This document shows, one piece after another, positions 550-30,193 of a stretch of 31,704 nucleotides of DNA (position 1 is the stretch's first letter; the number at the start of each line of letters is the position of its first letter). The stretch is taken from IMG/VR virus record IMGVR_UViG_3300044616_002294, positions 1-31,704 of that record; one strand, written 5' to 3'. Origin of the DNA: a virus. The notes under the pieces were generated by a model, which searched no databases, was not told the DNA's origin, and was given only the letters and a program-made list of their open reading frames with translations. The position numbers and the translations under genes are program-made.

Positions 550-2508
550 TCACAGATAGACGATGTTGTCCCTTGGCTGCCGTCTGATGCGGCTGGTGAG
601 GGTGCCGAAGTCTGCCCTGGCGGGTGCGCCTAGGTCGATGGTGGTGCGGCCTGACATGATGTCGTGGGAGATGGAGCGGGCGAGGGTCTGCATGGTGGCA
701 GCGGCGGCGACTGTTCCGGCGAGGTTGTATTTCGCGGCTAGGAGGTTGCTGGCGGTGACCTGATCCGCGATGAGGGTGATGGGCCCTTCCCATGGCACCC
801 AGTTCTGGGCGGCTTGGAGTCCGGCGGCGAGTCCGGCGGGGGGGACGAGGAAATCGTAGGTGAACTCGGAGACGAACTCGCCCGCGACGGTGTAGGCCTG
901 CCCGGTTGCCGGTGCCTTGGATGAGGCGACTGCGCCGCCCTTGAGCGTCGCCACCTTGGTTGCTCCGACGTAGGCCGAGATCACCGCACCGTAGCGGACG
1001 CCGTCCTTGATCCAGAAAACCGTGCGCCCCACGTAAGCCCCGTCCGTGGCGGATGCTCCGGATGCGAGCTTCACCGCGCTCGATGTCGTGCCGCTGGCAA
1101 AAGTCCCTGTGTGGGCGGCGGCGGGGACATTGGCGGTGTCGATCAGGTAGATGGGCAGATCGTCGCCCCTCACTTCCTTGATCAGAGCCGTGTAGATCGG
1201 CACGCCGTTGCCCACGCCGAAGCCTGCGGATGAGTTGGTATGCACATCCGGCATGAGCGCGTTCGCAATCGCTTGCCTGCGCTTCGAATTAAACGGCGGC
1301 GAGGAGGTGCTGCCGTTGCCGTCGTGGATAAAGAAATCGTTAACGAACCACCGAACGAGCCCGGCCTCCGCGAGCAGCCAATCCGGCGCGATAGTCTTGC
1401 CGTCGAGTCCAAGCATCACCGCCGTTTTACCGGCAGGGATCGTGGTTTCCACCGACTCGTAGGTGCCGCTACTGACGGCATCTTCGTAGAGCTCCCGCCC
1501 GTTTATCAGTTTCGCCCTGCTCGCCGTGAAGACGTAAGGATCGATGATCCGCCCGGCGTAAACGATGGCATCTGGCCAAGCCGCCGCGAGTTTCATGAGA
1601 GCTGGATCCGAGTTCTGGATCGCCAGAGCCGGGTTTGTCGTCGCGTAGTAAACCGGGATCCGCTCGATGCTTTCCACGGGGAGGAAGTCCACGATCTCCG
1701 GCCCACTGACTGTCACGATCTGGCGTTTTCCGGCGGCGGCGGTTCCTGACGCTTGGCTGGCCCAGGAGGGGAGTCCGGTGGTGGCGTTGCGGGTGATGTA
1801 ATCGAGCCGCGAGTAGGTCACCTCCAGATCGAGGCGGGGGGTGATGTCTTGGTCGATGACCGCGTCCGTGCCGATGGTGTAGGTCGTTGCGGAAAAAGCC
1901 CCGCGCCTGCCGACGTTCAGGATCGGCGTGGCGTCTCCGGTGGTGTCCGAGTAGTCGAACCATGCGACGGCATCCGGCACCCATGCCATGAGCTCGGCCA
2001 AGGCTTGGGCGCAGTTCATTTCCGCGAGGCTCATGTTCGGGGTGTCATACATGGCGGCGACGGTGCCGAGGCGCATGGGTGTGCCGTTGGTGATGGCGCG
2101 GCTGATGAGGGTGGAGACCTTCGTGTTGTGCGCGCCGGTGGGGAAGACGTAGTTGACCCGCTCGGCAGTTACGCCGCCGCCGTCGATCTGGTCGGAGGTA
2201 AGGGGGGTTCTGGTGAGCCACCACCACGCACCTTCTGCGCGGACGGTGATCCTTTTCGATGAGACGCGAGGCTTCGTGACATGCCCGCGGAATTTCCGGA
2301 CACCGTCCAGCCAGAGCTCCACGATCTGCCCGTAATCCGGGACGATGGTGCCCGCTCCAGTGGCATCGAGCGTGGCTGCGCTCCAGGTGAATGAGTCTTC
2401 CGAGAGAGATTGGAAAACGACCTGTGCCGAGTCGATGTTGAGCGTGTGTAGCTCGCGCAATGTGGCATCGAGCGTCCTGCCTGCTTCGCCTTTTATGAAC
2501 CAGCTCAT
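550..2508 (-). CDS. tail hub / baseplate-like protein
   Basis: This 652-residue protein is the last gene of the late operon. Its ATG overlaps the stop of the tape-measure gene by four bases (ATGA, 2505-2508), indicating translational coupling. The first 120 residues (MSWFIKGEAGRTL..., with DYGQIVELWLDGVRKFRGHVTKPR) read like the N-terminal beta-rich part of tail hub or late-control-D-type proteins, where a short barrel is followed by a module that positions the tail tip. The rest is beta-rich and unrecognised. The place right after the tape measure fits a distal tail or hub protein. A second small tail-tip role is possible. I see no peptidoglycan hydrolase motif. Confidence 0.5.
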   Translation of the reverse strand: MSWFIKGEAGRTLDATLRELHTLNIDSAQVVFQSLSEDSFTWSAATLDATGAGTIVPDYGQIVELWLDGVRKFRGHVTKPRVSSKRITVRAEGAWWWLTRTPLTSDQIDGGGVTAERVNYVFPTGAHNTKVSTLISRAITNGTPMRLGTVAAMYDTPNMSLAEMNCAQALAELMAWVPDAVAWFDYSDTTGDATPILNVGRRGAFSATTYTIGTDAVIDQDITPRLDLEVTYSRLDYITRNATTGLPSWASQASGTAAAGKRQIVTVSGPEIVDFLPVESIERIPVYYATTNPALAIQNSDPALMKLAAAWPDAIVYAGRIIDPYVFTASRAKLINGRELYEDAVSSGTYESVETTIPAGKTAVMLGLDGKTIAPDWLLAEAGLVRWFVNDFFIHDGNGSTSSPPFNSKRRQAIANALMPDVHTNSSAGFGVGNGVPIYTALIKEVRGDDLPIYLIDTANVPAAAHTGTFASGTTSSAVKLASGASATDGAYVGRTVFWIKDGVRYGAVISAYVGATKVATLKGGAVASSKAPATGQAYTVAGEFVSEFTYDFLVPPAGLAAGLQAAQNWVPWEGPITLIADQVTASNLLAAKYNLAGTVAAAATMQTLARSISHDIMSGRTTIDLGAPARADFGTLTSRIRRQPRDNIVYL

Positions 2509-4073
2509 CGTCCGGAAAGTTGGTTGACCTGGGCACGCAGGCGGGCTTGTTCCTGTTTTAGGGAGTCGATGCCGCCCGCCATCGAGGAGATGATCGAGTT
2601 CCCCTCAGCCACGATCTGCTGGAAGGACTGCATGTCTGTCTGCACGCCGCTGAGGAGCTGGGAAAGGGCTTGCTGGAAAGCGGTGGTCTCACTGGCGGCG
2701 ATTTTGCCGTCCGCGAGGATGGCATCCGCCCTGGCCTTGGCATCCTGTTGGAGAGCCGTTAGCTCTGATCCGGTGCCGGTGATGCTTTCCACCAGCGCAC
2801 GGCCTTTGTCTGCGGCTTGTTTCTGGATGTCGATCCCGGCGGTGGAGAAGGCCTGATCCACGCCCACCATGATCTCTGCCGTCTTGTTGGTGGCGATCGT
2901 TTCGAGTGCGGCCGCATCGGCTTTGATTTGGTCGAAAGCGTCCTTGGCCTTGATGAGTGAGGTGAAGGCGGCCTGCGCAGACGGACTATCCGCTCCGGCC
3001 TTGGCGTTGGCGCGGGTGAGTTCTGCATCGGCCTGTTGCACCTTTACCCGCGCCTCCTCGATGCCGCGCTGGGCGATGGCGAGATCTTCATTGAGTGCGG
3101 CGATGTCTGCCTGCGCTTGGCGGGCGGTAGCCTGCGCCTGCACCACATTGGGGTCGGCACCGCCTTGGATCGCGGCGGTATCGGAGCTTTGCGCCTGCGC
3201 TTCCTGTAGATCCCTGGCGGATCTTTCCACGCGGATCTTGCGTTCCAGCGCGGCGGTGATGGCGTTCACGGCACCGAGTTCCGCTTCCAGCTTCCCGAGG
3301 CGGATGGTGTTGTCCACCTCGGCATAGAGCTTGGCCTGCTGCTTGGCTTTCTCGATGCCAGCGGCCAAGAGCACGGACTGCTCCGCGCTTCTTTGCAGGT
3401 CATCGAGACCGGCGAGATTCGCGAATCCGGTTGAGACGAAATCCTTGATCGCCTGGAGCGGGTTGGAAACATTCTGGAGCATGTCCACCCAGAGGAAATC
3501 GCCGGGGTTTGTCTCTCGGAGTTTGTCGAGATCGACGCCCGCTTGCTGGAGGTTTCCGAGAAACTCTTGGGTGGCATTGTCCGCCAGCTTGATCGATGCG
3601 AAGACCGCCGCCGCATAGGCTCCGCCGCGTGCCACCGCCGCATCATCCGCCACCGCCGCCTGTCCCTCTGCCTCATTGCGCTGCGCCCTCCTGGCCTTCG
3701 CGTCCTCGACATCCTGCTTTGCCTGTTCGGCGCGATCTTTCTGCGCGGCGGCCAGCGTCTTTTCCTCTTCGGTGAGCTGGCGCGTGGCCTTTGCCTCGTT
3801 TTCCTTGGCGCGGGTGGCAGCCTCGGATTGCCGCTGTGCCTCGGCGGCGGCGGCGCGTCTCTCAGAGGCGGCGCGGCCGTTATCGCCGAAGCCGACCGTC
3901 TCTCCGCCGGGGACTTTTTTGACGGCTTGCTCGGCACGCGCGGCTTCCACGGCGATGCCGCCCATCGCTTGCTTTCCGCTATCGCCTACGTCCTTGATCG
4001 CCTGCGCGGCCTGCTCGGCGGCGGCGAGATCGGCTTCGGTCTTGATTGCGATGGTGATGTCTTTGTCGCTCAT
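2505..4073 (-). CDS. tape measure protein
   Basis: The frame is open further upstream, but the ATG at 4073 (MSDKDITIAIKTEADL) is the sensible start because it lies just after the stop of the preceding gene at 4076. The product is 522 residues, rich in Ala, Glu, Lys and Gln. It has long predicted coiled coils at about residues 60-145 and 230-400, and a short Ala/Val stretch near 150-165. Its composition, length and place between tail tube/fibre genes and the hub gene fit a tape measure that sets tail length. It is short for the family, suggesting a short flexible tail, or that other proteins share the job. Confidence 0.7.
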   Translation of the reverse strand: MSDKDITIAIKTEADLAAAEQAAQAIKDVGDSGKQAMGGIAVEAARAEQAVKKVPGGETVGFGDNGRAASERRAAAAEAQRQSEAATRAKENEAKATRQLTEEEKTLAAAQKDRAEQAKQDVEDAKARRAQRNEAEGQAAVADDAAVARGGAYAAAVFASIKLADNATQEFLGNLQQAGVDLDKLRETNPGDFLWVDMLQNVSNPLQAIKDFVSTGFANLAGLDDLQRSAEQSVLLAAGIEKAKQQAKLYAEVDNTIRLGKLEAELGAVNAITAALERKIRVERSARDLQEAQAQSSDTAAIQGGADPNVVQAQATARQAQADIAALNEDLAIAQRGIEEARVKVQQADAELTRANAKAGADSPSAQAAFTSLIKAKDAFDQIKADAAALETIATNKTAEIMVGVDQAFSTAGIDIQKQAADKGRALVESITGTGSELTALQQDAKARADAILADGKIAASETTAFQQALSQLLSGVQTDMQSFQQIVAEGNSIISSMAGGIDSLKQEQARLRAQVNQLSGR

Positions 4074-4075
4074 GG

Positions 4076-5152
4076 TCAGACGGCGGTGATGGTGGGTGTG
4101 CCGGTGGCGGTCGGAGCTCCGCCAAAGGATGCGGCTGGGAACCATCCCGTGGCACTCGCCGGAGTTGGCACTGATCCTGTGGTCTGGACGGACGCTGCCC
4201 AGACGCTGCCTGCGCTCACGGATGTCTGGTAACGCATCCGCCAGAATCCGATGCCGGTTTCCAGCGGATCCACCCACATGACCTGGATCGTTGGGTAGGT
4301 CACAAAGGGGTTGGCGGAGGTGTAAACTGGCAGCCCGTGTATGTCCGTGCTGGTCTGGTAATAGATGCCAGTGGCGTCCGGGGTGAGCGTGCCGGCTACC
4401 ATCATGCCCGGCACGACCGGAGCCGAGCCATCGCCCGGATCGGATGGGGAGAAGCCAGCGAAGGTGAAATCGCCGGGATTGGCAGGAGCGAAGGCGGGTG
4501 CGTCAAAGTCGCCGGGGTCTGCGGGGGAGAAGGCTGCCGCTTCAAAATCGCCCGGATCGAGGGGGGAGAAAGTGGGTGGTTCAAAATCTCCCGGATCGGC
4601 GGGGTTGTAGGAGGCCGCCTCGAAGTCACCGGGATCTGCCGGGGAGAAAGCGGACGCTTCGAAGTCACCGGGATCGGCGGGCGTGAAGGCCGGAATGGTA
4701 AGCGCGGCCTCCGCCGTGGCGACCTGCGCGATGGAGGCGAAAACTAGGCTGTAGCTTGTCGCCATCTCGGAGCTGCCCTTGACAAGGATTCCCGGCTCCA
4801 CCGATGGCACCAGGCACGCGCTGGCCAGCCAATAGCACTCCGCCACGCCCGCAGCCTCGATCTTGAGCGGTTTCTTTACCAGGCTGCCATGGGAGATGAG
4901 CCGCGTCATGACCGCTTTGCAGAGCGCCGCATGGGTCGTCACAGGCTCCATCCGGTCAAAGGAAACGCTTACCGCCCGGTTGCCCGAGTCCCGCAGGAAC
5001 GGCGCGACTGCATCGAGCAGCGGCACCGTCACCGCACCGCGCGTGCTGCCCCACCGGATCTCGGAGGCGAGGCGGTCATCGATGTCGAGGAGCACCACGG
5101 GCGTCCCGGAGGGGTCATAGGTGAGTCTCCAGCTTGAACGGACGTTGGGCAT
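4076..5152 (-). CDS. virion-associated protein with seven DPGDF repeats
   Basis: The product has 358 residues in three parts. Residues 1-150 form an unrecognised globular domain (MPNVRSSWRLTYDPSGTP...). Residues 156-241 hold seven tandem 13-residue units of consensus FSPADPGDFEAAA. Residues 245-358 are a Gly/Thr/Ser-rich, probably beta-stranded C-terminus (QVMWVDPLETGIGFWRMRY). It sits between the tail fibre and the tape measure, so a tail or tail-tip role is likely. The same repeat is found in the small protein at 7142-7447, on the other side of the fibre gene. I know of no assigned function for this repeat. It could be a spacer, a trimerisation element or a surface-display segment. Confidence 0.65.
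   Translation of the reverse strand: MPNVRSSWRLTYDPSGTPVVLLDIDDRLASEIRWGSTRGAVTVPLLDAVAPFLRDSGNRAVSVSFDRMEPVTTHAALCKAVMTRLISHGSLVKKPLKIEAAGVAECYWLASACLVPSVEPGILVKGSSEMATSYSLVFASIAQVATAEAALTIPAFTPADPGDFEASAFSPADPGDFEAASYNPADPGDFEPPTFSPLDPGDFEAAAFSPADPGDFDAPAFAPANPGDFTFAGFSPSDPGDGSAPVVPGMMVAGTLTPDATGIYYQTSTDIHGLPVYTSANPFVTYPTIQVMWVDPLETGIGFWRMRYQTSVSAGSVWAASVQTTGSVPTPASATGWFPAASFGGAPTATGTPTITAV
4430..4687 (-). repeat. seven tandem 39-bp units encoding the DPGDF repeat
   Basis: Seven consecutive 39-bp units encode F-x-P-A-D-P-G-D-F-E-x-x-x. The Pro-(Asp/Asn)-Pro-Gly-Asp core is conserved in every unit, while the three residues after Glu and the one after Phe vary. The DNA is also similar between units (TCxAAxTCxCCxGGATC on the plus strand), so copy number could change by slippage or recombination. 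Confidence 0.9.
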
Positions 5153-5245
5153 GGCTATTTAGCGGGCGGGGAGGTGGTATCACGCGGGATCGGAGCGCAG
5201 GAGGCGAGGGCTAGGCAGAGGATATCGGTGTGATGATTGATGGTT

Positions 5246-7120
5246 TTAGGTGCCTGTAACAAACCACTGCGAAGCCCCAGCTTGTATGGTTACGCAGCTC
5301 CACTGTGAGGGGAGAGAGTATGTGGTTGCTCCGTTGATCGTTTCTGATCCGTTGCCGTCTAGCGTTACTGCGTTGATAGATGAGTCCGTTTTGATGATCG
5401 TGTAGATGCGGCCAATCGCCGAGGCAATAGATGGCAGGTTGACAGTAACTGCTGCGCTTGTGGCGTTGCATTCCACAAGGCCGGAAAAGCTCGGAGGTGA
5501 TCCCGTTGAAACCATGCCGCTTGTCGTCGATCCCTGATCCGTAAATGTTGGCTCCGCCTCGTCATCGCAGCGGATCAAACCAACCTGCCGCATGTCGATC
5601 GTGCCTTGTCCTGATGCGGTGAACCAAAGCGCCGAAAGCTTCGCCCCACCAGCGACAACAATAACAGGACTGACAAACACGCCGTCAAAGGCTGGGAAAT
5701 CAAGCGGGTTGGCTGCGATCAAATCAACGTCTTGGTTAAGTATCGCCACTCCATTGCTGTTCTGGATAACTGTAATGGTGAAATTCGAGAATCCTGAGCC
5801 TTTTGCTCTCATGATAATTCTGAATTTCATTCCGCCGTAAATGATTGCATTAGGGAAATCCAGTTTTAGTCCTTTGCCGTTTGACCTATTGGAGCCGCCG
5901 ACAACAATCCGCTGCCATTCGCCCTCGGTGTCCGTCACCTTTGAAAAAGTCGTGGTTGCGTTCGTCGCGTCTGTGATCGTGTTGATTGCCCAGGTTGTCG
6001 CAATGTTCCCGCTGTATCCCGTCCCGCTGACAGCTACTGATCCCGTCATGTATGGGTTTCCAGTGAGCCATGGGCCATCGGATGAGTGAGGGATTGCAAA
6101 TGGAGCGTCTGGCAAAATAGGCTCAATGGCTGCCGCGACCTCTTGCCCAAGCAGCAATGCTCCGACCTTGTTTGGGTGGATAAGGTCGCGGTAATACGAT
6201 GCAACAGGTGCGCCAGCGGAACTGAAGACAGATGGATATGCTACCCATGTGATGCCGAGAGTGGCCGCGTCCGCCTGATTGATCGCATTTACCGCATCGG
6301 CAAAAGTTGTGATCGTGGAGTTTGTGTGGGGCAGGATCGCCACCGCGAAGATGTTTTCAGCGGGGATTCCGCCGAGGATCATCTCGTCCCATAATGCCTT
6401 CCGTTTCGCAGCTACCTGCGCGATGGTGTATGTAAAAACATCAGCAACATCATTCGCGCCAGATAACTCAACCACGATGGGGTTCCTGTCCCGCGCCCGA
6501 TTGAGCAAGGCGGAAAGCTGGCTGTTCGAACCCGTTACCGCCTCCACGGCACGGGCGGCAAAGTTGCCCGCCGTGGTGTTACGAATCGCGTTGATGGTTG
6601 CGCCCGATACTCCAAAATGACTGAGCGATGAGCTTTTGCGGCGTAGAAGTGATCGAGTCCTGCCCTTAAGGTGAAAGTTGACCCAATGGATGAAGCCGGA
6701 AGCGTTCATTCGAAGGTAGTTGCCAGAGAAGGAGTCGGCTTGTTCTGTGATGCTGTCACCGATGAAAGCAATGAATCGTGTCTGGTCACGCTGGTTGAAC
6801 CCGTCCTCGATCTGCGCGGCGGCTCCGGCGGGCGTCTCCGCTCCCAGTTCCGCGATCTGCGTGGCGGCGTTGGCGGCGGTTAGGAGGGCGCGGCCTGCGG
6901 CGGTGCTGTCGGAGATCTGACTGGCGGTGACATTCGCACCCCCTACCTCTACCCCATTGACGAAGGCCTTGGTGGCGGTGAAGGCCAGCGGGCTTTCGGT
7001 GCCGTCTCCTTTTAGGAGGGGCTGCGGGGTCTGGCCGTCTGCCGGAAAGTTCCCGGCCGTCTCAAATTGCGCGAGGTTGCGGTAAGTTCCGCGCGGATTT
7101 GTTGTAAGTGGTTTTCCCAT
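5246..7120 (-). CDS. tail fibre/spike with SGNH (GDSL) hydrolase domain
   Basis: The product has 624 residues. Residues 1-110 look like a virion-attachment and collar region. Residues 113-345 are an SGNH hydrolase: block I IGDSIT (nucleophile Ser123), block II Gly near FGVSGATIN (165-176), block III GAND (221-224) and block V DLIH (312-315, Asp/His). This family removes acyl or acetyl groups, so the likely role is deacylating host surface glycan during adsorption. The rest, about 350-624, is beta-rich, as in trimeric fibre tips. The gene is visibly less GC-rich than its neighbours, especially 5300-6800. It is flanked by two genes carrying the same DPGDF repeat. Confidence 0.75.
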   Translation of the reverse strand: MGKPLTTNPRGTYRNLAQFETAGNFPADGQTPQPLLKGDGTESPLAFTATKAFVNGVEVGGANVTASQISDSTAAGRALLTAANAATQIAELGAETPAGAAAQIEDGFNQRDQTRFIAFIGDSITEQADSFSGNYLRMNASGFIHWVNFHLKGRTRSLLRRKSSSLSHFGVSGATINAIRNTTAGNFAARAVEAVTGSNSQLSALLNRARDRNPIVVELSGANDVADVFTYTIAQVAAKRKALWDEMILGGIPAENIFAVAILPHTNSTITTFADAVNAINQADAATLGITWVAYPSVFSSAGAPVASYYRDLIHPNKVGALLLGQEVAAAIEPILPDAPFAIPHSSDGPWLTGNPYMTGSVAVSGTGYSGNIATTWAINTITDATNATTTFSKVTDTEGEWQRIVVGGSNRSNGKGLKLDFPNAIIYGGMKFRIIMRAKGSGFSNFTITVIQNSNGVAILNQDVDLIAANPLDFPAFDGVFVSPVIVVAGGAKLSALWFTASGQGTIDMRQVGLIRCDDEAEPTFTDQGSTTSGMVSTGSPPSFSGLVECNATSAAVTVNLPSIASAIGRIYTIIKTDSSINAVTLDGNGSETINGATTYSLPSQWSCVTIQAGASQWFVTGT

Positions 7121-7141
7121 GGTCGTGTTTGTGTTTTTCGA

Positions 7142-7447
7142 TTAGCGGATGGCTTCCCAGTTCACCGCCTCCCAGTCCACCGGAGGGGTGGCGGGCAGCG
7201 GTATGATTGCTCCAGGGTCAGAGGGTGAAAACGCCGCCGCCTCGAAGTCTCCCGGATCGGCAGGAGAGGAAGCAGCGGCCTCGAAGTCTCCCGGATCGGA
7301 GGGAGAGAAAGCCGATGCCTCCGCCCCACCCGGATCTGCCGGTGCAAACGCCGCTGCTTCGAAGTCCCCCGGATCAGCGGGAGCGAAGCTGGCCTCCGTG
7401 AGATCGCCCGGATTGGCGGGCGCGAAGGTGTAGGATGGCGTAGGCAT
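7142..7447 (-). CDS. small protein made almost wholly of six DPGDF repeats
   Basis: Of 101 residues, 8-80 are six 13-residue units of the DPGDF type, some degenerate (for example DPGGAEASA and DPGAIIPLP). A short tail follows with the duplicated motif DWEAVNWEAI. It lies between the tail tube gene and the SGNH fibre gene in the same transcript. It has no separate globular domain, so it may be a linker, a fibre adaptor, or a partial duplicate of the repeat part of the 358-residue protein at 4076-5152. The function is unknown. Confidence 0.6.
   Translation of the reverse strand: MPTPSYTFAPANPGDLTEASFAPADPGDFEAAAFAPADPGGAEASAFSPSDPGDFEAAASSPADPGDFEAAAFSPSDPGAIIPLPATPPVDWEAVNWEAIR
7208..7426 (-). 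repeat. six tandem 39-bp units encoding the DPGDF repeat
   Basis: These are the same 39-bp unit as at 4430-4687 and in the same orientation, about 2.5 kb away. The two arrays bracket the fibre gene as direct repeats. Confidence 0.88.
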
Positions 7448-7460
7448 CGGCGGAGGGGTG

Positions 7461-8015
7461 TTAGACGATGGCGAGCGGCTCGACGGCTTGGATGGTCGAG
7501 GTGATGATCTCGAACTTCACCGCAGGTTTCGTGGGGTCTTTCGCCCACTTCGGCGCGGCGTCGAGGCGGAGTTTCCCCCAAAGGGCGGCGACGATGCGAT
7601 CCGTGCCATCCTGCCCGCGAAGCTGGAAGTGCAGCCAGCCCTGGACAAAGCGATCCTTCTTCTTGAAAGGAGTGAAAGCGGCATCGTTCACGATGACTGC
7701 ATCTGCACCCCACACCATCCGGTGGATCAGCTCGGAGTGCTCGCGCAGGGAGAGCTTGATGATGTCCTGCAGGACGATCTCCTCGGTGGTGCGGCCATAG
7801 CCACCCGCCGCTTGCGGGCAATCGTCCTCGTAGGTCTCCGTTACCGTCTCCGCGCTGCTATCGAGCACGCAGCCGAGGGATTTCCAAGAGGCTGGGTAAG
7901 TGTCTGCATTCGGGTAAAGCCCGATGCCCACCGTGTTGACGGGGGAGGTGCCGTATGTGGTGCCCTCTGCCGCGAAAGACGCGAACGCGCCGAGTATTAG
8001 TTTTTCAAGTTTCAT
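7461..8015 (-). CDS. major tail tube protein
   Basis: The 184-residue protein starts MKLEKLILGAFASFAAEGTTYGTSP. It has the small, beta-rich, single-domain character of tail tube proteins, with a conserved-looking centre (ETVTETYEDDCPQAAGGYGRTTEE). It is encoded after the tail-terminator-like gene and before the fibre genes, where a tube protein is expected in long-tailed phages. No sheath gene lies next to it, supporting a non-contractile tail. The assignment rests on position and fold-like composition rather than a diagnostic motif. Confidence 0.55.
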   Translation of the reverse strand: MKLEKLILGAFASFAAEGTTYGTSPVNTVGIGLYPNADTYPASWKSLGCVLDSSAETVTETYEDDCPQAAGGYGRTTEEIVLQDIIKLSLREHSELIHRMVWGADAVIVNDAAFTPFKKKDRFVQGWLHFQLRGQDGTDRIVAALWGKLRLDAAPKWAKDPTKPAVKFEIITSTIQAVEPLAIV

Positions 8016-13380: not shown

Positions 13381-13968
13381 ATCTTCTTGGTTGGTTTGAG
13401 ATTGTTCTTCTGACTCCTGACCTCTGACCTCTGATTCCTCATATTCATTGGCGAGAGCAGGGACGGGGATGTTCGGATCATTCGTGAGACCCATGGACTT
13501 GAATGCAACGGGCTGGATCCCGCCCTTCACCGGGCGCGTCCACCAGAGCGGGGAGTAGTATTTGAAGTGGGCGTTCTCCACGAGTTCGCGCCCGGCCTCG
13601 CTCCATTTCACGGACAGCCGCATTCCGGTTTCCTCGGGGATCATGTTTTCCACCCAGCCGTAAGACTTCTTGTCGGTGTCCTTTGATCCGGGAAGATCCG
13701 GATGTCCGATGTAAACCGGATAGGAGGGACTCTCCCCGAGCGCCCAGCTCACCAACCGCTTCACAAGGCCGTTATGATTCGCGGCGATCCTCTCGGCGGC
13801 AGCACGGTCGAATTTCTGCTTGCCCAGCTTGTGCGGATAATCCCCGTAAGGCACGAAAAACGAATCTCCCTGGAGGATCGCAAATGGGCTGCAATTCTCC
13901 GTAGCGTTCGCCAGGAGCGTGACATCGGCGGCATCGTTCGCCGCGAGGGTGAGGTGGTCAGTTTTCAT
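12772..13968 (-). CDS. prohead protease-scaffold fusion (Mu gpI-like)
   Basis: The product has 398 residues. Residues 25-170 resemble the Mu I protease (peptidase U35), with candidate catalytic His in YIGHPD (residue 89) and Ser in YYSPLWW (139). A low-complexity linker at 175-195 (EYEESEVRGQESEEQSQ) joins a highly charged coiled-coil scaffold half (197-398). An internal ATG at 13380 would make the scaffold alone. The 5' end overlaps the portal 3' end by 11 bases. The protease would mature the prohead and degrade the scaffold. Confidence 0.7.
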   Translation of the reverse strand: MKTDHLTLAANDAADVTLLANATENCSPFAILQGDSFFVPYGDYPHKLGKQKFDRAAAERIAANHNGLVKRLVSWALGESPSYPVYIGHPDLPGSKDTDKKSYGWVENMIPEETGMRLSVKWSEAGRELVENAHFKYYSPLWWTRPVKGGIQPVAFKSMGLTNDPNIPVPALANEYEESEVRGQESEEQSQTNQEDMNPELLAALGLEEGATAEDALAKIASLKEAAEAAANAEKPEAPDPDALKMAEEEKAAAEEKARLAEEEKEAANKKVTVLEGHLATAAANAVDSAIAAGKITPAEKDAKVTEILAANDFTDALKELNAAAPKVKTASATGDLGSAKSRMVLAANDESKAAREERAQLVESEFQATNPNQSLGERKRLAWQRAQKKNPELFGKA

Positions 13969-16219
13969 CGGTCTCTGTGAGTGCGGTTAGAAGCTCGACT
14001 CCCATGGCCTCCGCCAGCGCGGTGCTTTCGAGGAAATCCGGCATGTCCTTGGAAATCTTTTTCAGCGCCGCCTTCATCGCCGCCTCATCGCCCGCGTTGA
14101 ACGCCGCAAACAGCGCATCGCCCAGAGGTTGCAGATCCGCTGCAAGGGAGATGCGGAGCTTGTCCGTTTGGAAATATGCGGCTTCGTTGGCTATACCTAC
14201 CACGCCCGCCGCGTTTTCGGTAGGCTCCCCGGAAGATGCCGAGGATGACTGATCAAAACGGCGGGACAAAGGGATCAGTCTACCAGATGTATCCCTTTTG
14301 AACACATTGTTATCACTGCCGAATTTAGAATAACTAGTATATGTCTCGGGCTTTCTGACTACATCCAAAACGACAGCATCACCTAAGACGGTCTCACCCA
14401 AATCTTCACCGCCCTGCGCCGAACTACCTGAGATAAGAGCAGGCTGTTGTCCAGAATAAGATCCCCCAGTTTTTTTGCCAAAGCCCTTCGGATTGATACC
14501 CATCAAGTTCATCGCCCGCACCATTGTTTCCCGATCTCCTTCAACTAAAATGGATGAAGTTCCGGGCAACTCTTCTTCTGTTCGATTACCATCAACCCAG
14601 ACCGCCGAATTCCGAAGATTTTCACCGACAACAACCGTGTGCCCGTCTATCGCCCGTATTCCGTAATAATTATTACCTCCGTCTGCTTCAATAGCGCTGA
14701 TGAACCTATCTGTGATTTTTTCAGCTTCTAGCTTGGCTGCTTGGTTCAATAGTTCGATAGCAGAATCCTTGTCTCCACGCTCTACAGCACCAAGATACGC
14801 AGCATCCATTTCGGGGGTGACGGCAGAATCAACCGGCAGGGTTCCGTCACCAATGTCTGCCCCACCGGGCGTTTTGTTGTCGATGCCATGGGATTTATCT
14901 GATAATGCGCCTTTTGTCCACCTCCCGCCGTCAGGTTCACCCTTCGGTGCCCGCGCCTGGAGAGGATTGTAAGCATTCTCAGCCGCAATATCTTCCTCCG
15001 TCTTCTCTTTCTCTGGTTTCTGGTATCTGGTCTCTGGCTTCTCAGCTTCTTCCACAATCTCCCGCCCATAGCGCTCCGCTAGATCCGCCGGATCCTGCTT
15101 CACGCCCAGCTTCACGAGTCCGGTGTCAATCGCCAGATCGCGGGTGAGGTCTTCGTCGCCCGGTGGATTCACCACGATGTAGGCCGCCGGTTTCTCATCG
15201 CCATGCACCATGCGGATCACCAGCCGGTCGAGCTGCGTTTGCAAGGTTTCGGAGATCATCGCGCAATCGTCCTGAAGAAGCGCATCGGTTTCCTCGGCCT
15301 GCGGGTTCGAGCCGGTGCCTTCACTGCGGGAAATGGTGGAGAGGTCTCCGCCGCGCACCAGGGTGGCGATGGCTCTGTCCATGTATTCGATGATGGACAT
15401 CGGCGGCAGCGTGCCGGAACTCGGCGTCTGCATGATCTCGATGGGGTTCTTGATCGAACCGTCGTCCGAGTAGGTGACGCCCACCCAGTCCGAAGCGTAG
15501 GCCAGCACGGAATCGCGCATGGCGCGGCCTTCGTCGCTGTCCTTCTGCGCGCTCGTCCGGCCAAGCACGCCCGGCACGGAGAATTTCTCCGAGAAGGAGA
15601 TCAGATCCTGCACGCCCAGCCGCTTGAACTGATAAAGGATCGAAAGCGCCTCGCCCAGCCCGTCGCCCACCGTGATCATCCAGCCGTCCTCTTCCAGCGG
15701 CATCCCGTCCGAGCGGTTCTCGACGCCGACGAATTTGAGCTTCCCGGTGCGGTTCTCGAAAAAGTAGAGCGGCACCCGGCGCAGCTCGGCGGTCATGCCT
15801 CCCTCGGAGGGCTTCCAGATGATCTCATGCACCGCGTATTTCTGGAGCACGGCATCCATCATCTGCCGCAGCAGGCCGGACATGCCGGTGCGCACGTTGC
15901 CGTCCGTCGCGTCGGTGGTGGTGAGGTTGTTGTAGAAATACAACAGCGTTGCCTTGTGCGCCTCGGCGTTCGGATCCTCCGCGTCCGGGACGATGATCTG
16001 CCAGTCCCGCCGCGCCACCGCCGCACGGCGCTTGCCCATCACCGATTTGATGATCGCCTCGCGCCCCTCAATCGTCTCGAAAATCAACGCCGCATCCCGC
16101 AGCCAACCCGCCGCCCACTGGTCAAGCGCGGACGCGAGCCGCTCCGGTGTCAGCGACCGCAGCGGATTGAAGCGCGTCTGCCTCCAGCGCAGCCCAAGGC
16201 TCTCCATGCCGATATTCAC
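13958..16219 (-). CDS. DUF935 portal protein carrying an inserted cargo-like module
   Basis: The start is GTG at 16219, chosen for a strong ribosome-binding site (AAGGAGGT on the minus strand, 16225-16232). The product has 753 residues. Residues 5-410 are the Mu gp29-type (DUF935) portal core (SLTPERLASALDQWAAGWLRDA; SEKFSVPGVLGRT). Residues 423-656 are an unexpected module opening with RAPKGEPDGGRWTKG, containing DAAYLGAVERGDKDSA and closing with GRLIPLSRRFD. Residues 681-753 (DKLRISLAADLQPLGDALFAAF...) resume a portal-like helical C-terminus. The DNA of the module (about 14250-14900) is much more AT-rich than its flanks. The portal forms the ring through which DNA enters and leaves the head. 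Confidence 0.75.
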   Translation of the reverse strand: MNIGMESLGLRWRQTRFNPLRSLTPERLASALDQWAAGWLRDAALIFETIEGREAIIKSVMGKRRAAVARRDWQIIVPDAEDPNAEAHKATLLYFYNNLTTTDATDGNVRTGMSGLLRQMMDAVLQKYAVHEIIWKPSEGGMTAELRRVPLYFFENRTGKLKFVGVENRSDGMPLEEDGWMITVGDGLGEALSILYQFKRLGVQDLISFSEKFSVPGVLGRTSAQKDSDEGRAMRDSVLAYASDWVGVTYSDDGSIKNPIEIMQTPSSGTLPPMSIIEYMDRAIATLVRGGDLSTISRSEGTGSNPQAEETDALLQDDCAMISETLQTQLDRLVIRMVHGDEKPAAYIVVNPPGDEDLTRDLAIDTGLVKLGVKQDPADLAERYGREIVEEAEKPETRYQKPEKEKTEEDIAAENAYNPLQARAPKGEPDGGRWTKGALSDKSHGIDNKTPGGADIGDGTLPVDSAVTPEMDAAYLGAVERGDKDSAIELLNQAAKLEAEKITDRFISAIEADGGNNYYGIRAIDGHTVVVGENLRNSAVWVDGNRTEEELPGTSSILVEGDRETMVRAMNLMGINPKGFGKKTGGSYSGQQPALISGSSAQGGEDLGETVLGDAVVLDVVRKPETYTSYSKFGSDNNVFKRDTSGRLIPLSRRFDQSSSASSGEPTENAAGVVGIANEAAYFQTDKLRISLAADLQPLGDALFAAFNAGDEAAMKAALKKISKDMPDFLESTALAEAMGVELLTALTETDEN
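14252..14953 (-). other. low-GC module embedded in the portal gene
   Basis: This segment encodes portal residues 423-656. Its edges carry two motifs I associate with phage-borne polymorphic-toxin or MuF-type cargo proteins: an Arg-Pro-Lys-Gly-x-Pro-x-Gly-Gly-Arg-Trp-Thr element, and a Gly-x-x-Ile-Pro-Leu-Ser-x-Arg-Phe element. The interior (residues about 490-610) is unrecognised. It has a strand-rich part (GHTVVVGENLRNSAVWVDG) and a helix (DRETMVRAMNLMGINP). Confidence 0.6.
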
Positions 16220-16351
16220 AGCGCACCTCCTTTGCCATCGCGCCACGAAGCCCTTGCACAGCGTTGCAAGCGGCTTTTTGCGCGATTATCGCCCGTTCCT
16301 TCGGAAAAGTTAGATACCCCCCTAAAATCGCCTCCTACAGCTCTTTTTTCG

Positions 16352-24672: not shown

Positions 24673-24698
24673 GAGTTGAAATTTGAATTTTGAAATTT

Positions 24699-26849
24699 AT
24701 GCAAACGCTCACCCACGCACCCGCCACCCTCCTCGACCTCATCGCCCGCGAGGGAGGCCTGGCCGATCTCAACCGCCTCAACCCCGGCCAGAAGGATGAC
24801 ATGTTCCGCAAGCTCGGAGCCGTCCAGGCTGTCATGCAGGCGGGGCGCGGCGGCATGTGCCAGGTGAAGAAAACAATCGCCCGCACCCTCGGCATTTCCC
24901 CGCAGGCCATCGATGTCTGGATCAAGGCCTACCGCCAGCACGGCTGGCAAGGCCTCGTCGATCAGCGCCGCCTCGCCGCGAAAGGCCGCAGGCATATCCC
25001 GGACATCACCGCGCAGTGGTTCAAGGATCTCATCACCAGCACCCAGCGCACCGAGGACGGCATGATGGAAGCCCACCGTCAGGTCATCGATCAATGGAAC
25101 CTCTGGCGCAGAACCGGCGATCCCAAGTGGGCGATCCCCGGCTTCCTCAACCCGCCCGCCGATTGCGGGAAAGGCTACCCCGCCGGTTTCAGCTACGAGA
25201 CCTTCCGTAAATGCAAGCCCACCAAGTATCAGCGCAAGCTCGCCAGCCAAGGCACCATCAGCTCCTACCGCGATCTCCCCTCCATCCTCTCCACATGCGT
25301 CGGCACCGAGTATCTCGAATACATCTTCTTCGACGATGAAAAGCCCGACGTCCAGGTGCGCGTCCCCGGCTTCGACCGCCCCATGGTTCCCCTCTGCTTC
25401 CATGCCCTCGACCGCCTGACCCGCTTTCCCTTCCGTCCGCACATCCGCCTCCGCTGGTATGATACCGACGCGCAGACCCACCGCACGCTCACCCAGAAAG
25501 AGTTCGTCTGGTATGTGATCGCCATCCTCGGCACCGAGGGATACCGCACCGATGCCGCTGGCACCACGCTGATCCAGGAGCACGGCACCGCCAAGACCTG
25601 GGAGAACAAAGCCCTCTCCACACCCGACGGCCACCACTCCTTCGAGGAAGCCCTCCACGCCATCACCGGCGGCTGCGTCCGCATGGACAGCTCCGGCCTC
25701 TTCAACAAGCCCGCCTTCGCGGAAATGCTCTACGGCCCGCAGTCATCGGGCAACCCGCGCTTCAAGGCACCCATCGAATCCAGCTTCCACCTCTGGCGCA
25801 CCTACTCGCAGATGCTCATCGGCCAGACCGGCCGCAACGTCGAGAACTCGCCCGAGGAAAACTACGGCATCACGAAATACGAGAAGCAGATCCTCAAGGC
25901 CGTGAAAGACCTGCCGGCCCACATCCAGGACGGCATCCTTTCCAACTACCTCACCGGCGTGGAATTCACCTCCATCGCCGAGCTGATCCGCCACGCCCTG
26001 GCAAACCGCACCGACCACTCCTTCGAAGGCTGGAACGCCCTGAACTTCGTCGAGCCGGTCTGGCGCTGGAAGCAGGATGAACCCGGCATGTGGCGCTCCC
26101 GCAGCGACCTTGCAAAGCTCCCGCAGCACCTCCGCGATCACGCTGCAAGCGAGCAGCGCGAGGATCCCAGCCTCAGCTCCATCATCCCGTGGAGTCCCTC
26201 CATCGCCCGCGCCGTGAAAGCCGCCGATCCGTGCATCAAGAAGCTCTCCCTCTTCGATAGCGTCCACCTCCTCCCCACCTCATGGGCGAAGCCCGTCACC
26301 GTCACCAGCCGCCACGAGATCCACATCACCGAGGAACTCCTCCCCGGCGAGGAACTCATCTACCTCCCGGAACTCACCACCCCGCGCGGCCGCACCGAGT
26401 TCCTCCAGCCCGGCGACAAGCTCATGGCCTACCTCAACCCCATGATGCCGGAAACCCTCATCATCTGCGACATGGAGTTCACCCCCCTCGGCACCTTGAC
26501 AAGGAACGTCCGCCACCACCGCGACAACAACGCCGTCGAGGAAATGTTCAGGCAGCGCGCCCGCCTCCAGGGAGCCATGGAAGCCCCCGTCAAGCGCGCC
26601 ATGCAAGGCCAGATGGATCGCCGCGACGCCGTCCACCAGCTCAACAAGGATCTCATCGCCAAGGCCAACGGCGAGACCCGCTCCGAGAACGAGATCAAGG
26701 CCGAAGCCCGCCACGCCGCCGCCGACAAGGCCGTCACCACCCGCCGCGTCGCCACCTACGAAACCGCAGCGCCCGAGGACATCTTCACCCCCGCCGCCGC
26801 GCAAGCCCCCATCGACGAAGCCGACATCGCCGACTGGCTGAATGACTGA
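24699..26849 (+). CDS. MuA-like DDE transposase
   Basis: ATG at 24699 (MQTLTHAPATLL) gives 716 residues; a TTG three codons earlier would read through a spacer. Residue numbers below use the ATG as 1. An N-terminal HTH region lies at about 40-95 (IARTLGISPQAIDVWIKAYRQHGWQGLVDQ). The RNase H-like core follows with candidate catalytic residues Asp212/213 (IFFDDEK), Glu294 (LIQEHGTA) and Glu360 (FKAPIESSFHLW). A Mu-type C-terminal beta barrel lies near 510-590 (PGDKLMAYLNPMMPETLIIC), then a helical MuB-contacting-like tail. It catalyses strand transfer in integration and replicative transposition. The second acid is Glu where Asp is usual. Confidence 0.85.
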   Translation: MQTLTHAPATLLDLIAREGGLADLNRLNPGQKDDMFRKLGAVQAVMQAGRGGMCQVKKTIARTLGISPQAIDVWIKAYRQHGWQGLVDQRRLAAKGRRHIPDITAQWFKDLITSTQRTEDGMMEAHRQVIDQWNLWRRTGDPKWAIPGFLNPPADCGKGYPAGFSYETFRKCKPTKYQRKLASQGTISSYRDLPSILSTCVGTEYLEYIFFDDEKPDVQVRVPGFDRPMVPLCFHALDRLTRFPFRPHIRLRWYDTDAQTHRTLTQKEFVWYVIAILGTEGYRTDAAGTTLIQEHGTAKTWENKALSTPDGHHSFEEALHAITGGCVRMDSSGLFNKPAFAEMLYGPQSSGNPRFKAPIESSFHLWRTYSQMLIGQTGRNVENSPEENYGITKYEKQILKAVKDLPAHIQDGILSNYLTGVEFTSIAELIRHALANRTDHSFEGWNALNFVEPVWRWKQDEPGMWRSRSDLAKLPQHLRDHAASEQREDPSLSSIIPWSPSIARAVKAADPCIKKLSLFDSVHLLPTSWAKPVTVTSRHEIHITEELLPGEELIYLPELTTPRGRTEFLQPGDKLMAYLNPMMPETLIICDMEFTPLGTLTRNVRHHRDNNAVEEMFRQRARLQGAMEAPVKRAMQGQMDRRDAVHQLNKDLIAKANGETRSENEIKAEARHAAADKAVTTRRVATYETAAPEDIFTPAAAQAPIDEADIADWLND

Positions 26850-27088: not shown

Positions 27089-28186
27089 ATGCCCCACACC
27101 ACCACCATCGAAGCCGAAACGGATCTTGATTCCCGCACCTCACCCGTCGGGAAAAGCGAACTCGCGAAAGCGTCCAGCTCCAAGTCCCGGATCAACATCC
27201 CCTTCAACCTCAACAACTGGAAAGGCCTCGACGAGGAAACCGTCGAGCAGCTCGCCTGGTTCCACCAGCACGCCCTGGAATCCGACCTCTCCTGGAAGCA
27301 ATGCGAGCAGGCGCTCAACTACTCGCAGACCACCGTCTTCCGCGCTTTGAAAGGCGAATACGGCGGCGACCTCGCCAAGGTCATCGCCGCCATCCGCTCC
27401 TACCGCACCATCATCACCGAGCGCACCGCCATCACCAACGCCGACTTCCGCGAGACCCGCATCACCAAGCTCGTCACCGGCGGCCTCAGCTACGCCCTGG
27501 CCAACAACTCCATCACCTCCATCACCGGCGAAAGCCGCATGGGAAAGACCGCCTCCGCGAAATACTGGCGCGACCAGAACAACCACGGCCGCACCGTCTT
27601 CGTCACCGCCCCGGCCTACGGCGGCGCGAAAGCCCTCCTCAAGGAAATCGCCTTCTGCCTCGGCATCAACCGGAACCTTTCCGTCCCGAACATGCACGAC
27701 GCCATCCTCCGCGCCTTCAACCAGAACCGCATGCTCATCGTCGATGAAGCCCACCGCATGCTCCCCAACGACTACCGCTCCAACCCCGTCCTCCTGGAGA
27801 TCCTCCGCGACATCCACGACCGCACCGGCTGCGGCCTCGGCATCCTCGCCACCGAGCGTTTCTCCACCGCCATCGCCAAGTCCGCCTACCAATATGAGCA
27901 GGTGCTTGGCCGCATCGGCATGCCCGTCCGCCTCCCCCGCGAATTCGTCTGGGGCGACGTCGCACCCATCGCCGCGCAATACCTCCCCGACACCCCGAAA
28001 GACCTCGCCTCCGAGCTGCTCAAGATCGCCAACCAGCCCGGCCGCCTCGGCATCGTCTGCGAGACCCTCAAGTTCGCCAGCCGCATCGCCTCCAAGAAGA
28101 AATCCGCCCTCACCCCGGAGATCGTCCGCATGGCCATCGGCACCCGCCACCAGATGATGGGAGAAACCCAATACGCCAAGAAATAA
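27089..28186 (+). CDS. MuB-like AAA ATPase, transposition target selector
   Basis: The product has 365 residues. The N-terminal region has a basic patch (KSELAKASSSKSR) and an HTH-like segment (65-90, LSWKQCEQALNYSQTTVFRAL). The AAA core has Walker A GESRMGKT (147-154) and Walker B MLIVDEAH (215-222), followed by a sensor-like region (LGILATERFS). MuB binds target DNA, delivers it to the transposase and gives target immunity. Placement after the transposase gene is as in Mu. Confidence 0.85.
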   Translation: MPHTTTIEAETDLDSRTSPVGKSELAKASSSKSRINIPFNLNNWKGLDEETVEQLAWFHQHALESDLSWKQCEQALNYSQTTVFRALKGEYGGDLAKVIAAIRSYRTIITERTAITNADFRETRITKLVTGGLSYALANNSITSITGESRMGKTASAKYWRDQNNHGRTVFVTAPAYGGAKALLKEIAFCLGINRNLSVPNMHDAILRAFNQNRMLIVDEAHRMLPNDYRSNPVLLEILRDIHDRTGCGLGILATERFSTAIAKSAYQYEQVLGRIGMPVRLPREFVWGDVAPIAAQYLPDTPKDLASELLKIANQPGRLGIVCETLKFASRIASKKKSALTPEIVRMAIGTRHQMMGETQYAKK

Positions 28187-29143: not shown

Positions 29144-29417
29144 GAGCGGTTCCTCTCTGCCGCCTGTTTGGAATCCGCTCGATGATGAGTTCGAGGAAAT
29201 CCTTGGAGGCTCGTGGGCCGTAATCAGAACCGCAGATGGATGGGAGATTGAATGCCAGCATAGTCAGACGACTCTCCCGCTAAAATCGACCGAAATGGGA
29301 TCCGCGAAAATCGAGGGCAGGAAATTAGCCCGTCAATTCGAGCAGCGATATCTGCCGAACGCTCAAGCGATGGCAGCCGCCGACACCGCCACTCCGACGA
29401 AGGAAACGACTTTATGA
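29118..29417 (+). CDS. hypothetical protein preceding the methyltransferase
   Basis: The product has 99 residues, with VWNPLDDEFEEILGGSWAVIRTADGWEIECQ as its most ordered part. The stop overlaps the methyltransferase start by four bases. Third-position GC is clearly lower here than in the transposition genes, as it is in the methyltransferase, so the two may have come as one cassette. It could be an accessory of the enzyme. Confidence 0.5.
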   Translation: MPLRNKAAKSGSSLPPVWNPLDDEFEEILGGSWAVIRTADGWEIECQHSQTTLPLKSTEMGSAKIEGRKLARQFEQRYLPNAQAMAAADTATPTKETTL

Positions 29418-30193
29418 TACCTGAAACCTACGAAACACCATCGCAGGCGGATTGCCATCCGCGCCTTGTTCATCCTCTTACGGATCACGGGGGGATTGCG
29501 ATCTATCTGGGCGACTGCCTGGACATCATGCCGCAACTGGAAAACGACACCTTCGACGCCGTGGTGACTGATCCGCCATACTCCAGCGGAGGCCGCACGC
29601 AAGCTGCAGCTCGGAACGTGGTCAGCAAATCAGACAGCCGGGAAGCCGATGAGTGGTTCATGGGCGACAACATGGGAGTTGATACCTACATCCGCTGGAT
29701 GCGCCAAATCGCACGGGAAAGCCTGCGCGTGGTGATCCAAGGCGGCCATGCCTACGTCTTCACCGACTGGCGGCAGTTCACGAACCTCTCGACGGCGTGG
29801 GAAAGCATCGGCTGGTCTCTCCGCTCGGTGATCGTCTGGGACAAAGCCAAAGGTGGGGCAATGGGTAGCTTCTGGCGGAACAATCACGAATGGTGCTGCG
29901 TCTTCACGAAAGGCCAGCCAAACCCGCCCGCGCATCGCTCCTGCTTCAACACATGGACAGGATCGAAGCCACAAGGCCACGAACACCCGACGGAAAAGCC
30001 GCTGGGACTCATGACCTACATCATCGGGGCGATCCCGAAAAGCACGGGGAAAATCCTCGAACCGTTCGCAGGCTCTGGCACCACGCTGGAAGCCGCGAAG
30101 CTGTGCGGATTCGGTGCCGTCGGAATCGAACGGAACCCGGTCTATGCCAAAGCCTGCGCCGCCAAGATTTCACAGGGGACGCTCGCTCTATGA
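29414..30193 (+). CDS. DNA methyltransferase (DPPY, beta-class-like)
   Basis: The product has 259 residues. DPPY (53-56) comes before the AdoMet motif FAGSGTT (218-224), the beta-class order of N6-adenine or N4-cytosine methyltransferases. HPTEKP (191-196) is the usual neighbour of the AdoMet pocket. No partner endonuclease gene is visible, so it is an orphan enzyme that may shield phage DNA from host restriction or mark it, a role comparable to mom in Mu though by different chemistry. The target sequence cannot be told. The composition differs from the flanks. Confidence 0.8.
   Translation: MIPETYETPSQADCHPRLVHPLTDHGGIAIYLGDCLDIMPQLENDTFDAVVTDPPYSSGGRTQAAARNVVSKSDSREADEWFMGDNMGVDTYIRWMRQIARESLRVVIQGGHAYVFTDWRQFTNLSTAWESIGWSLRSVIVWDKAKGGAMGSFWRNNHEWCCVFTKGQPNPPAHRSCFNTWTGSKPQGHEHPTEKPLGLMTYIIGAIPKSTGKILEPFAGSGTTLEAAKLCGFGAVGIERNPVYAKACAAKISQGTLAL

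Follow-up and report, generated by a model that had tools for sequence, protein, structure and literature searches.

Why should one 13-residue repeat be encoded in two different tail proteins, with a fibre gene lying between the two arrays? This question is raised by the DNA analysed here (the window), an IMG/VR virus record of 31,704 bases, whose tail genes follow on the minus strand in the order 184-aa tail-tube-fold protein, 101-aa array protein, SGNH fibre, 358-aa array protein, putative tape measure and a conserved tail protein, here called the "hub" (Table 1). It was proposed in an earlier note on this DNA that the arrays could act as recombination arms for swapping or losing the fibre gene, or that the proteins bearing them could be paired structural partners of the fibre. 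The reading preferred here, drawn from sequence comparison and held at a probability of roughly 55%, is that DPGDF repeats serve verrucomicrobial phages as disordered, multivalent arms by which receptor-binding modules are attached to the tail.

Table 1 Tail-gene features of the window, with positions counted from its first base
Feature	Position	Strand	Basis and remarks
Conserved tail protein used as marker ("hub")	550-2508	-	41-49% identity to relatives; no Pfam/PHROG match
Putative tape measure	2505-4073	-	Position only; no convincing family match
358-aa array protein	4076-5152	-	ORF: adaptor domain, long array, C-terminal domain
C-terminal domain of 358-aa protein	4079-4414	-	Weakly similar to "GTLT" module of slot proteins
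Long array	4415-4687	-	Seven 39-bp units (A1-A7) of the 358-aa protein, following its adaptor domain; Tandem Repeats Finder and in-register reading; low pLDDT
Adaptor domain, residues 1-150 of 358-aa protein	4703-5152	-	Predicted tail-tube/Dit fold; Foldseek and VIA-align matches; homologues in relatives
SGNH/GDSL fibre gene, 624 aa	5246-7120	-	Pfam Lipase_GDSL_2 E 3.4e-5 (below curated cut-off); phrog_6102 lipase E 6.9e-14
SGNH cassette, residues 109-624, low GC	5249-6796	-	Homologous to fibre of unrelated phage contig L004
101-aa array-only protein	7142-7447	-	ORF directly after tail-tube-fold gene; C-terminus PPVDWEAVNWEAIR
Short array	7193-7426	-	Six 39-bp units (S1-S6) in the 101-aa protein; Tandem Repeats Finder and in-register reading
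Tail-tube-fold protein, 184 aa, upstream of array protein	7461-8015	-	AlphaFold2 mean pLDDT 87.6; Foldseek tail-tube matches

Period-39 arrays were reported by Tandem Repeats Finder at 4473-4690 and 7210-7383, a repeat search of the window placed both in a single direct-repeat family, and the peptide consensus F-x-P-A-D-P-G-D-F-E-x-x-x was read in frame in both the 358-aa and the 101-aa protein. At lag 13, the 358-aa protein has 63 identical residues, compared with a mean of 26 and a maximum of 46 over 5000 shuffles; the 101-aa protein has 44 (mean 10, maximum 21). The back-translated pattern PGDF-x9-PGDF was matched 6 times in the window and 0 times in 100 shuffles. With lag-13 identity so far above the shuffles, the two arrays of seven and six 39-bp units described in the earlier note are real, and they lie in the same orientation, one on either side of the SGNH fibre gene. 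Their limits needed correction: the positions first given, 4430-4687 and 7208-7426, cut short the degenerate unit that ends each array, and the in-register limits are those of Table 1. At the amino acid level, mean unit identity was 62% for the long array, 57% for the short array and 61% for units of different arrays; the DNA values were 65%, 61% and 63%, respectively.

Neither array was covered by a family model from Pfam, PHROG or NCBIfam. The 101-aa protein matched 0 families of these collections, and the sole match of the 358-aa protein, phrog_23558 (residues 43-93, E 0.0077), falls outside the array. The literature on such tail repeats was also searched, including the string DPGDF, and nothing relevant was found in the papers covered, in agreement with the earlier view that no repeat of this consensus had been described. 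Direct searches with the two array proteins found no relative among viral contigs or phage records, nor, for the 358-aa query, in genome contigs. No close relative of the window was found in which array copy number could be compared. The PGDF-x9-PGDF DNA pattern occurred in one stretch of the viral contigs and 25 of the genome contigs. When read in frame none of these equals the window array (the scans may omit records near the window): the viral match is a 19-residue frame, and the matches in L012, L022, L025 and others are other repeats.

Relatives were reached through the neighbour genes and not through the repeat: the conserved tail protein led to loci L030-L032 and the adaptor domain to L036-L039. 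The adaptor was detected by its profile in 1 of 387 genomes sampled from the phylum of G001, the Cerasicoccus frondis genome (phylum Verrucomicrobiota), and in 5 of 288 sampled from the G221 order; in the family of G586, the conserved tail protein profile found 22 of 145 genomes and the tube-fold profile 38 of 260. The hub had no match among 50,697 phage records. As the relatives of the window come from Verrucomicrobiota genomes and IMG/VR, we infer that its own host also belongs to this phylum. On one 68 kb contig (IMGVR_UViG_3300046001_005260) both L030 and L036 are found, two tail modules each with its own adaptor-SGNH fusion. Elsewhere in the window, a MuA-like transposase (24690-26849, plus strand; phrog_310, E 8.9e-14) and a TniB/MuB-like ATPase (27089-28186, plus strand; AAA_22, E 1.6e-14) are encoded, on the basis of which the phage appears to be Mu-like and transposable. 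The window also contains a portal protein gene (13958-16246, minus strand; phrog_113, with a second match to phrog_18666 at residues 526-630) and an ORF with a DPPY motif (29414-30193, plus strand), presumably a DNA methyltransferase.

In the relatives, the gene that directly follows the tail-tube-fold gene (the slot) encodes a protein with proline-rich units of 13-16 residues, x-P-x-x-P-[G/P]-x-[V/F], and the DPGDF repeat would be one lineage's form of this unit family. Visual inspection showed slot arrays in 13 of 22 loci (window, L030, L031, L036, L039, L048, L051, L083, L091, L092, L094, L095 and L096) and in 9 of 20 further loci (L134-L141 and L144); these counts by eye, like the array limits set by hand, were our choice, and they include loci sharing a genome or contig (L030 with L036, L095 with L096), while L050 and L085, counted among the misses, are one place. 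The shortest arrays (L030, L031, L036 and L092) have just two or three units, and in L041 an array is present with the tube gene absent from its contig. Among the misses, the adaptor immediately follows the tube gene in L050, L085, L087 and L089, and L088, L090, L099, L101 and L102 have isolated PPV-type units only; those of the 20-locus set are L133, L142, L143 and L145-L152. Two different tandem adaptor-type genes, again without an array protein, directly follow the tail-tube-fold gene at L087 (9437-11043), L089 (9037-10643) and L050 (6769-8441).

The flavour of the units differs by phage, for example APSATTPGTVLGA in L091, SPTAPGSVVVDH in L051, TPGDVGAVFVA in L137 and DPGDFEAAAF in the window. 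The motif count per slot protein is mostly just modestly above shuffles. Of 26 slot proteins, 11 have the motif within their last 9 residues, where 5000 shuffles gave a mean of 1.2 and a maximum of 6. In L135 (1307-2572, plus strand), a folded part lies between an N-terminal array and a C-terminal one that is very long and of a single flavour. The associated parts change places: a W-rich C-terminus was found in 7 of 45 adaptors versus 1 of 26 slot proteins, that of the window; the GTLT-like domain, typically a part of slot proteins, comes after the adaptor array in the window and in genome G260; and the adaptor domains of L030 and L036 are fused straight to an SGNH-like region, with 32% and 31% identity, respectively, to the SGNH protein of the window. 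Since these parts sit on different proteins among phages, modules are, by this comparison, shuffled around the tail array genes.

The gene enclosed by the two arrays did not reach the curated cut-offs of its Pfam families (Lipase_GDSL_2, 24.9 bits against 32.9; Lipase_GDSL, 18.2 against 23.6). The blocks GDS 121, GAND 221 and DLIH 312 are all intact and in order, and we take GDS, GxND and DxxH to be the catalytic block set of SGNH/GDSL enzymes. Its GC content of 55.6% (GC3 0.61), compared with 60.7-66.3% (GC3 0.66-0.80) in five other measured tail genes, bears out the earlier remark that the fibre gene differs in composition from its operon. The change takes place inside the gene, where GC is 69% over residues 51-100, 53% over residues 101-150 and low from there on. 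The alignment with the L004 fibre (43.5% identity over 508 columns) likewise starts at residue 109; the L004 contig has 45.6% GC over the 11.4 kb examined, and no homologue of the tube-fold, adaptor or hub protein was found there at E <= 1. Because the GC drop and the homology to a foreign fibre both begin inside the gene, the fibre body looks imported, with a seam within the gene and one homologue behind it. Receptor-binding SGNH esterase fibres of temperate phages are already known (PMC13123978; PMC11058221), and those of Klebsiella prophages are receptor-binding esterases (PMC13123978). They share with the window an SGNH hydrolase in a prophage tail fibre with its catalytic motifs kept; however, the abstracts of these two papers mention no DPGDF-type array, and the window esterase is a gene of its own between two array proteins.

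Are the arrays preserved as DNA or as peptide? Across the two arrays, the same codon was used in 0.386 of 334 identical-residue comparisons, against an expectation of 0.398 derived from codon usage in ten window genes; the corresponding value was 0.471 (expected 0.412) for unit pairs inside the long array and 0.396 (expected 0.386) inside the short one. Units compared across the arrays are 41-77% identical. Since cross-array codon matching equals the expectation from codon usage, the array DNA has by this measure drifted to saturation with the 13-mer peptide kept. Together with a longest identical DNA run of 14 bp between the arrays, this favours a function of the peptide and disfavours arrays that are homologous recombination arms at present. 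It is thus very improbable that the arrays are direct repeats for deleting, duplicating or swapping the fibre gene, as one part of the earlier interpretation had it. Their direct orientation around a lower-GC fibre gene would fit, as would the variation among phages of modules near the arrays, such as the W-rich tail and the placement of the GTLT-like domain. However, two near-identical G260 prophages share one unit layout, and the break in composition and homology (about residues 100-109) is placed within the SGNH gene, about 370-400 bp from the nearest array. A direct-repeat recombination cassette has near-identical flanking DNA repeats and an exchange boundary at the repeats; here the mean unit identity is 63% with the short longest run given above, and the boundary, marked by a single homologue, falls inside the gene.

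The adaptor domain of the 358-aa protein was modelled by AlphaFold2 with pLDDT 84-96, but 57-62 in residues 41-60. Foldseek matches, the best at E 2.6e-4 in PDB and E 9.6e-6 in BFVD, agree with a tail-tube/Dit fold, and VIA-align gave Z 8.4 and 8.2 to tip/baseplate proteins, followed by tube, neck, baseplate and Hcp proteins; because these Z values are middling, the assignment is limited to the fold. The only hmmsearch match among PDB sequences was an unrelated protein (E 0.66). Residues 5-149 are thus predicted to share the fold of the tail-tube/Dit superfamily (SPP1 TTP 6yeg, phage p2 baseplate 2wzp, 80alpha baseplate 6v8i), whereas the window adaptor has no convincing PDB sequence match and is extended by a repeat arm and then a distal domain. 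The models of the adaptor and of the 184-aa tube-fold protein are both tail-tube-like, yet hhalign found no similarity between the two profiles. GTLT pieces that aligned onto adaptors were left out of the adaptor alignment. The distal, C-terminal domain is weakly similar to GTLT (E 0.023 with the profile of the other members, 9.9 without the L096 row). The fold prediction of the repeat called for in the earlier note yielded no fold: pLDDT was about 30-59 across the long array, for which reason no array fold or interface is predicted, and the C-terminal domain was likewise without a confident model.

Under the attachment-arm reading, which draws on the 13-mer being kept with synonymous codons saturated, the long array would link the tail-tube/Dit-fold adaptor domain to the distal domain, and the short array would be a stand-alone protein beside the SGNH fibre. 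The disordered multivalent arm would fasten receptor-binding modules to the tail ring, with its units at the N-termini, and often the last residues, of slot proteins. We infer that the array units share one binding partner on the virion and that the 101-aa protein acts in trans for the SGNH fibre.

The flavour of the units bears on such a partner. Flavour scores were computed against composition-keeping shuffles. For 30 arrays, genome-mates had a mean z of 7.6 versus 1.96 when permuted, a mean reached by 0 of 5000 permutations; when the window was excluded, the values were 6.3 and 2.1 (0 of 5000). In the three phages that have an array in each of two proteins (window, G260 and G600), all six arrays rank their own mate first of 29, and an earlier 16-array run gave the same first ranks; the mate margin of G260 is thin (4.4 versus 4.3 in the 16-array run, 4.1 in the 30-array run). 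However, an array of another genome outranks the mate for 8 of 18 genome-mate arrays, each of them belonging to an N/C pair of a single protein; the mates of G743 are a clear exception (ranks 13 and 21), and flavour is also common to different genomes (G550 and G574, G586 and G221).

The slot protein of G260 consists of an N-terminal array and a SASA esterase (Pfam 37.5 bits, cut-off 24.8), an esterase of the SGNH superfamily, and matches the tail fibre protein phrog_4201 (E 9.6e-72). An array protein thus occupies the equivalent slot and bears an esterase; in G260 array and esterase form one protein, whereas in the window they are two proteins and the flavour is another. The G260 adaptor protein carries an array of the same flavour between its adaptor domain and a GTLT-type domain, as in the 358-aa protein of the window, and the 786-aa array protein of G600 gave a SASA match of 20.3 bits, below the cut-off. 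The flavour of genome-mates, the arrays in two G260 proteins and the array as N-terminus of an esterase fibre give indirect support to the other part of the earlier interpretation, that of paired structural partners. A bolder version, which we consider rather unlikely, is that flavour is a phage-specific matching code, by which two tail proteins dock on one another or share a docking site, with modules supplied in cis or in trans and free to be exchanged if the flavour matches.

A plain flexible linker would explain much of the array data. The main rival to the attachment-arm reading is that the arrays are passive, proline-rich spacers without specific binding, whose likeness in one genome would stem from an old duplication and a common composition; we regard it as a serious but less probable explanation. 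It accords with the low pLDDT, with the proline-rich, low-complexity sequence and with a unit length that varies from 13 to 16 among phages. However, the 101-aa protein of the window and the 88-aa protein of L141 are hardly more than arrays, so there is little in them to link. The units at the extreme C-terminus of 11 of 26 slot proteins and the 13-mer kept despite saturated codons also argue against mere spacers, and the flavour scores were already set against composition-keeping shuffles.

Other phages keep tail chaperones between the tail tube and tape measure genes, where the array genes of the window are also placed, which would suit proteins that act in tail assembly and are absent from the finished virion. 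But the G260 array is joined to an esterase tail fibre and the other window array to a tail-tube/Dit-fold domain, and we consider such an assembly role very unlikely.

For attachment arms of receptor-binding modules, the consequence concerns host range, which is set by the tail fibres of a phage; how a module is fastened limits what can be swapped. A repeat tether common to two tail proteins would, if true, be a simple and evolvable fastening, and it would mark receptor-binding loci in a phage group whose hub has no match in the phage records searched.
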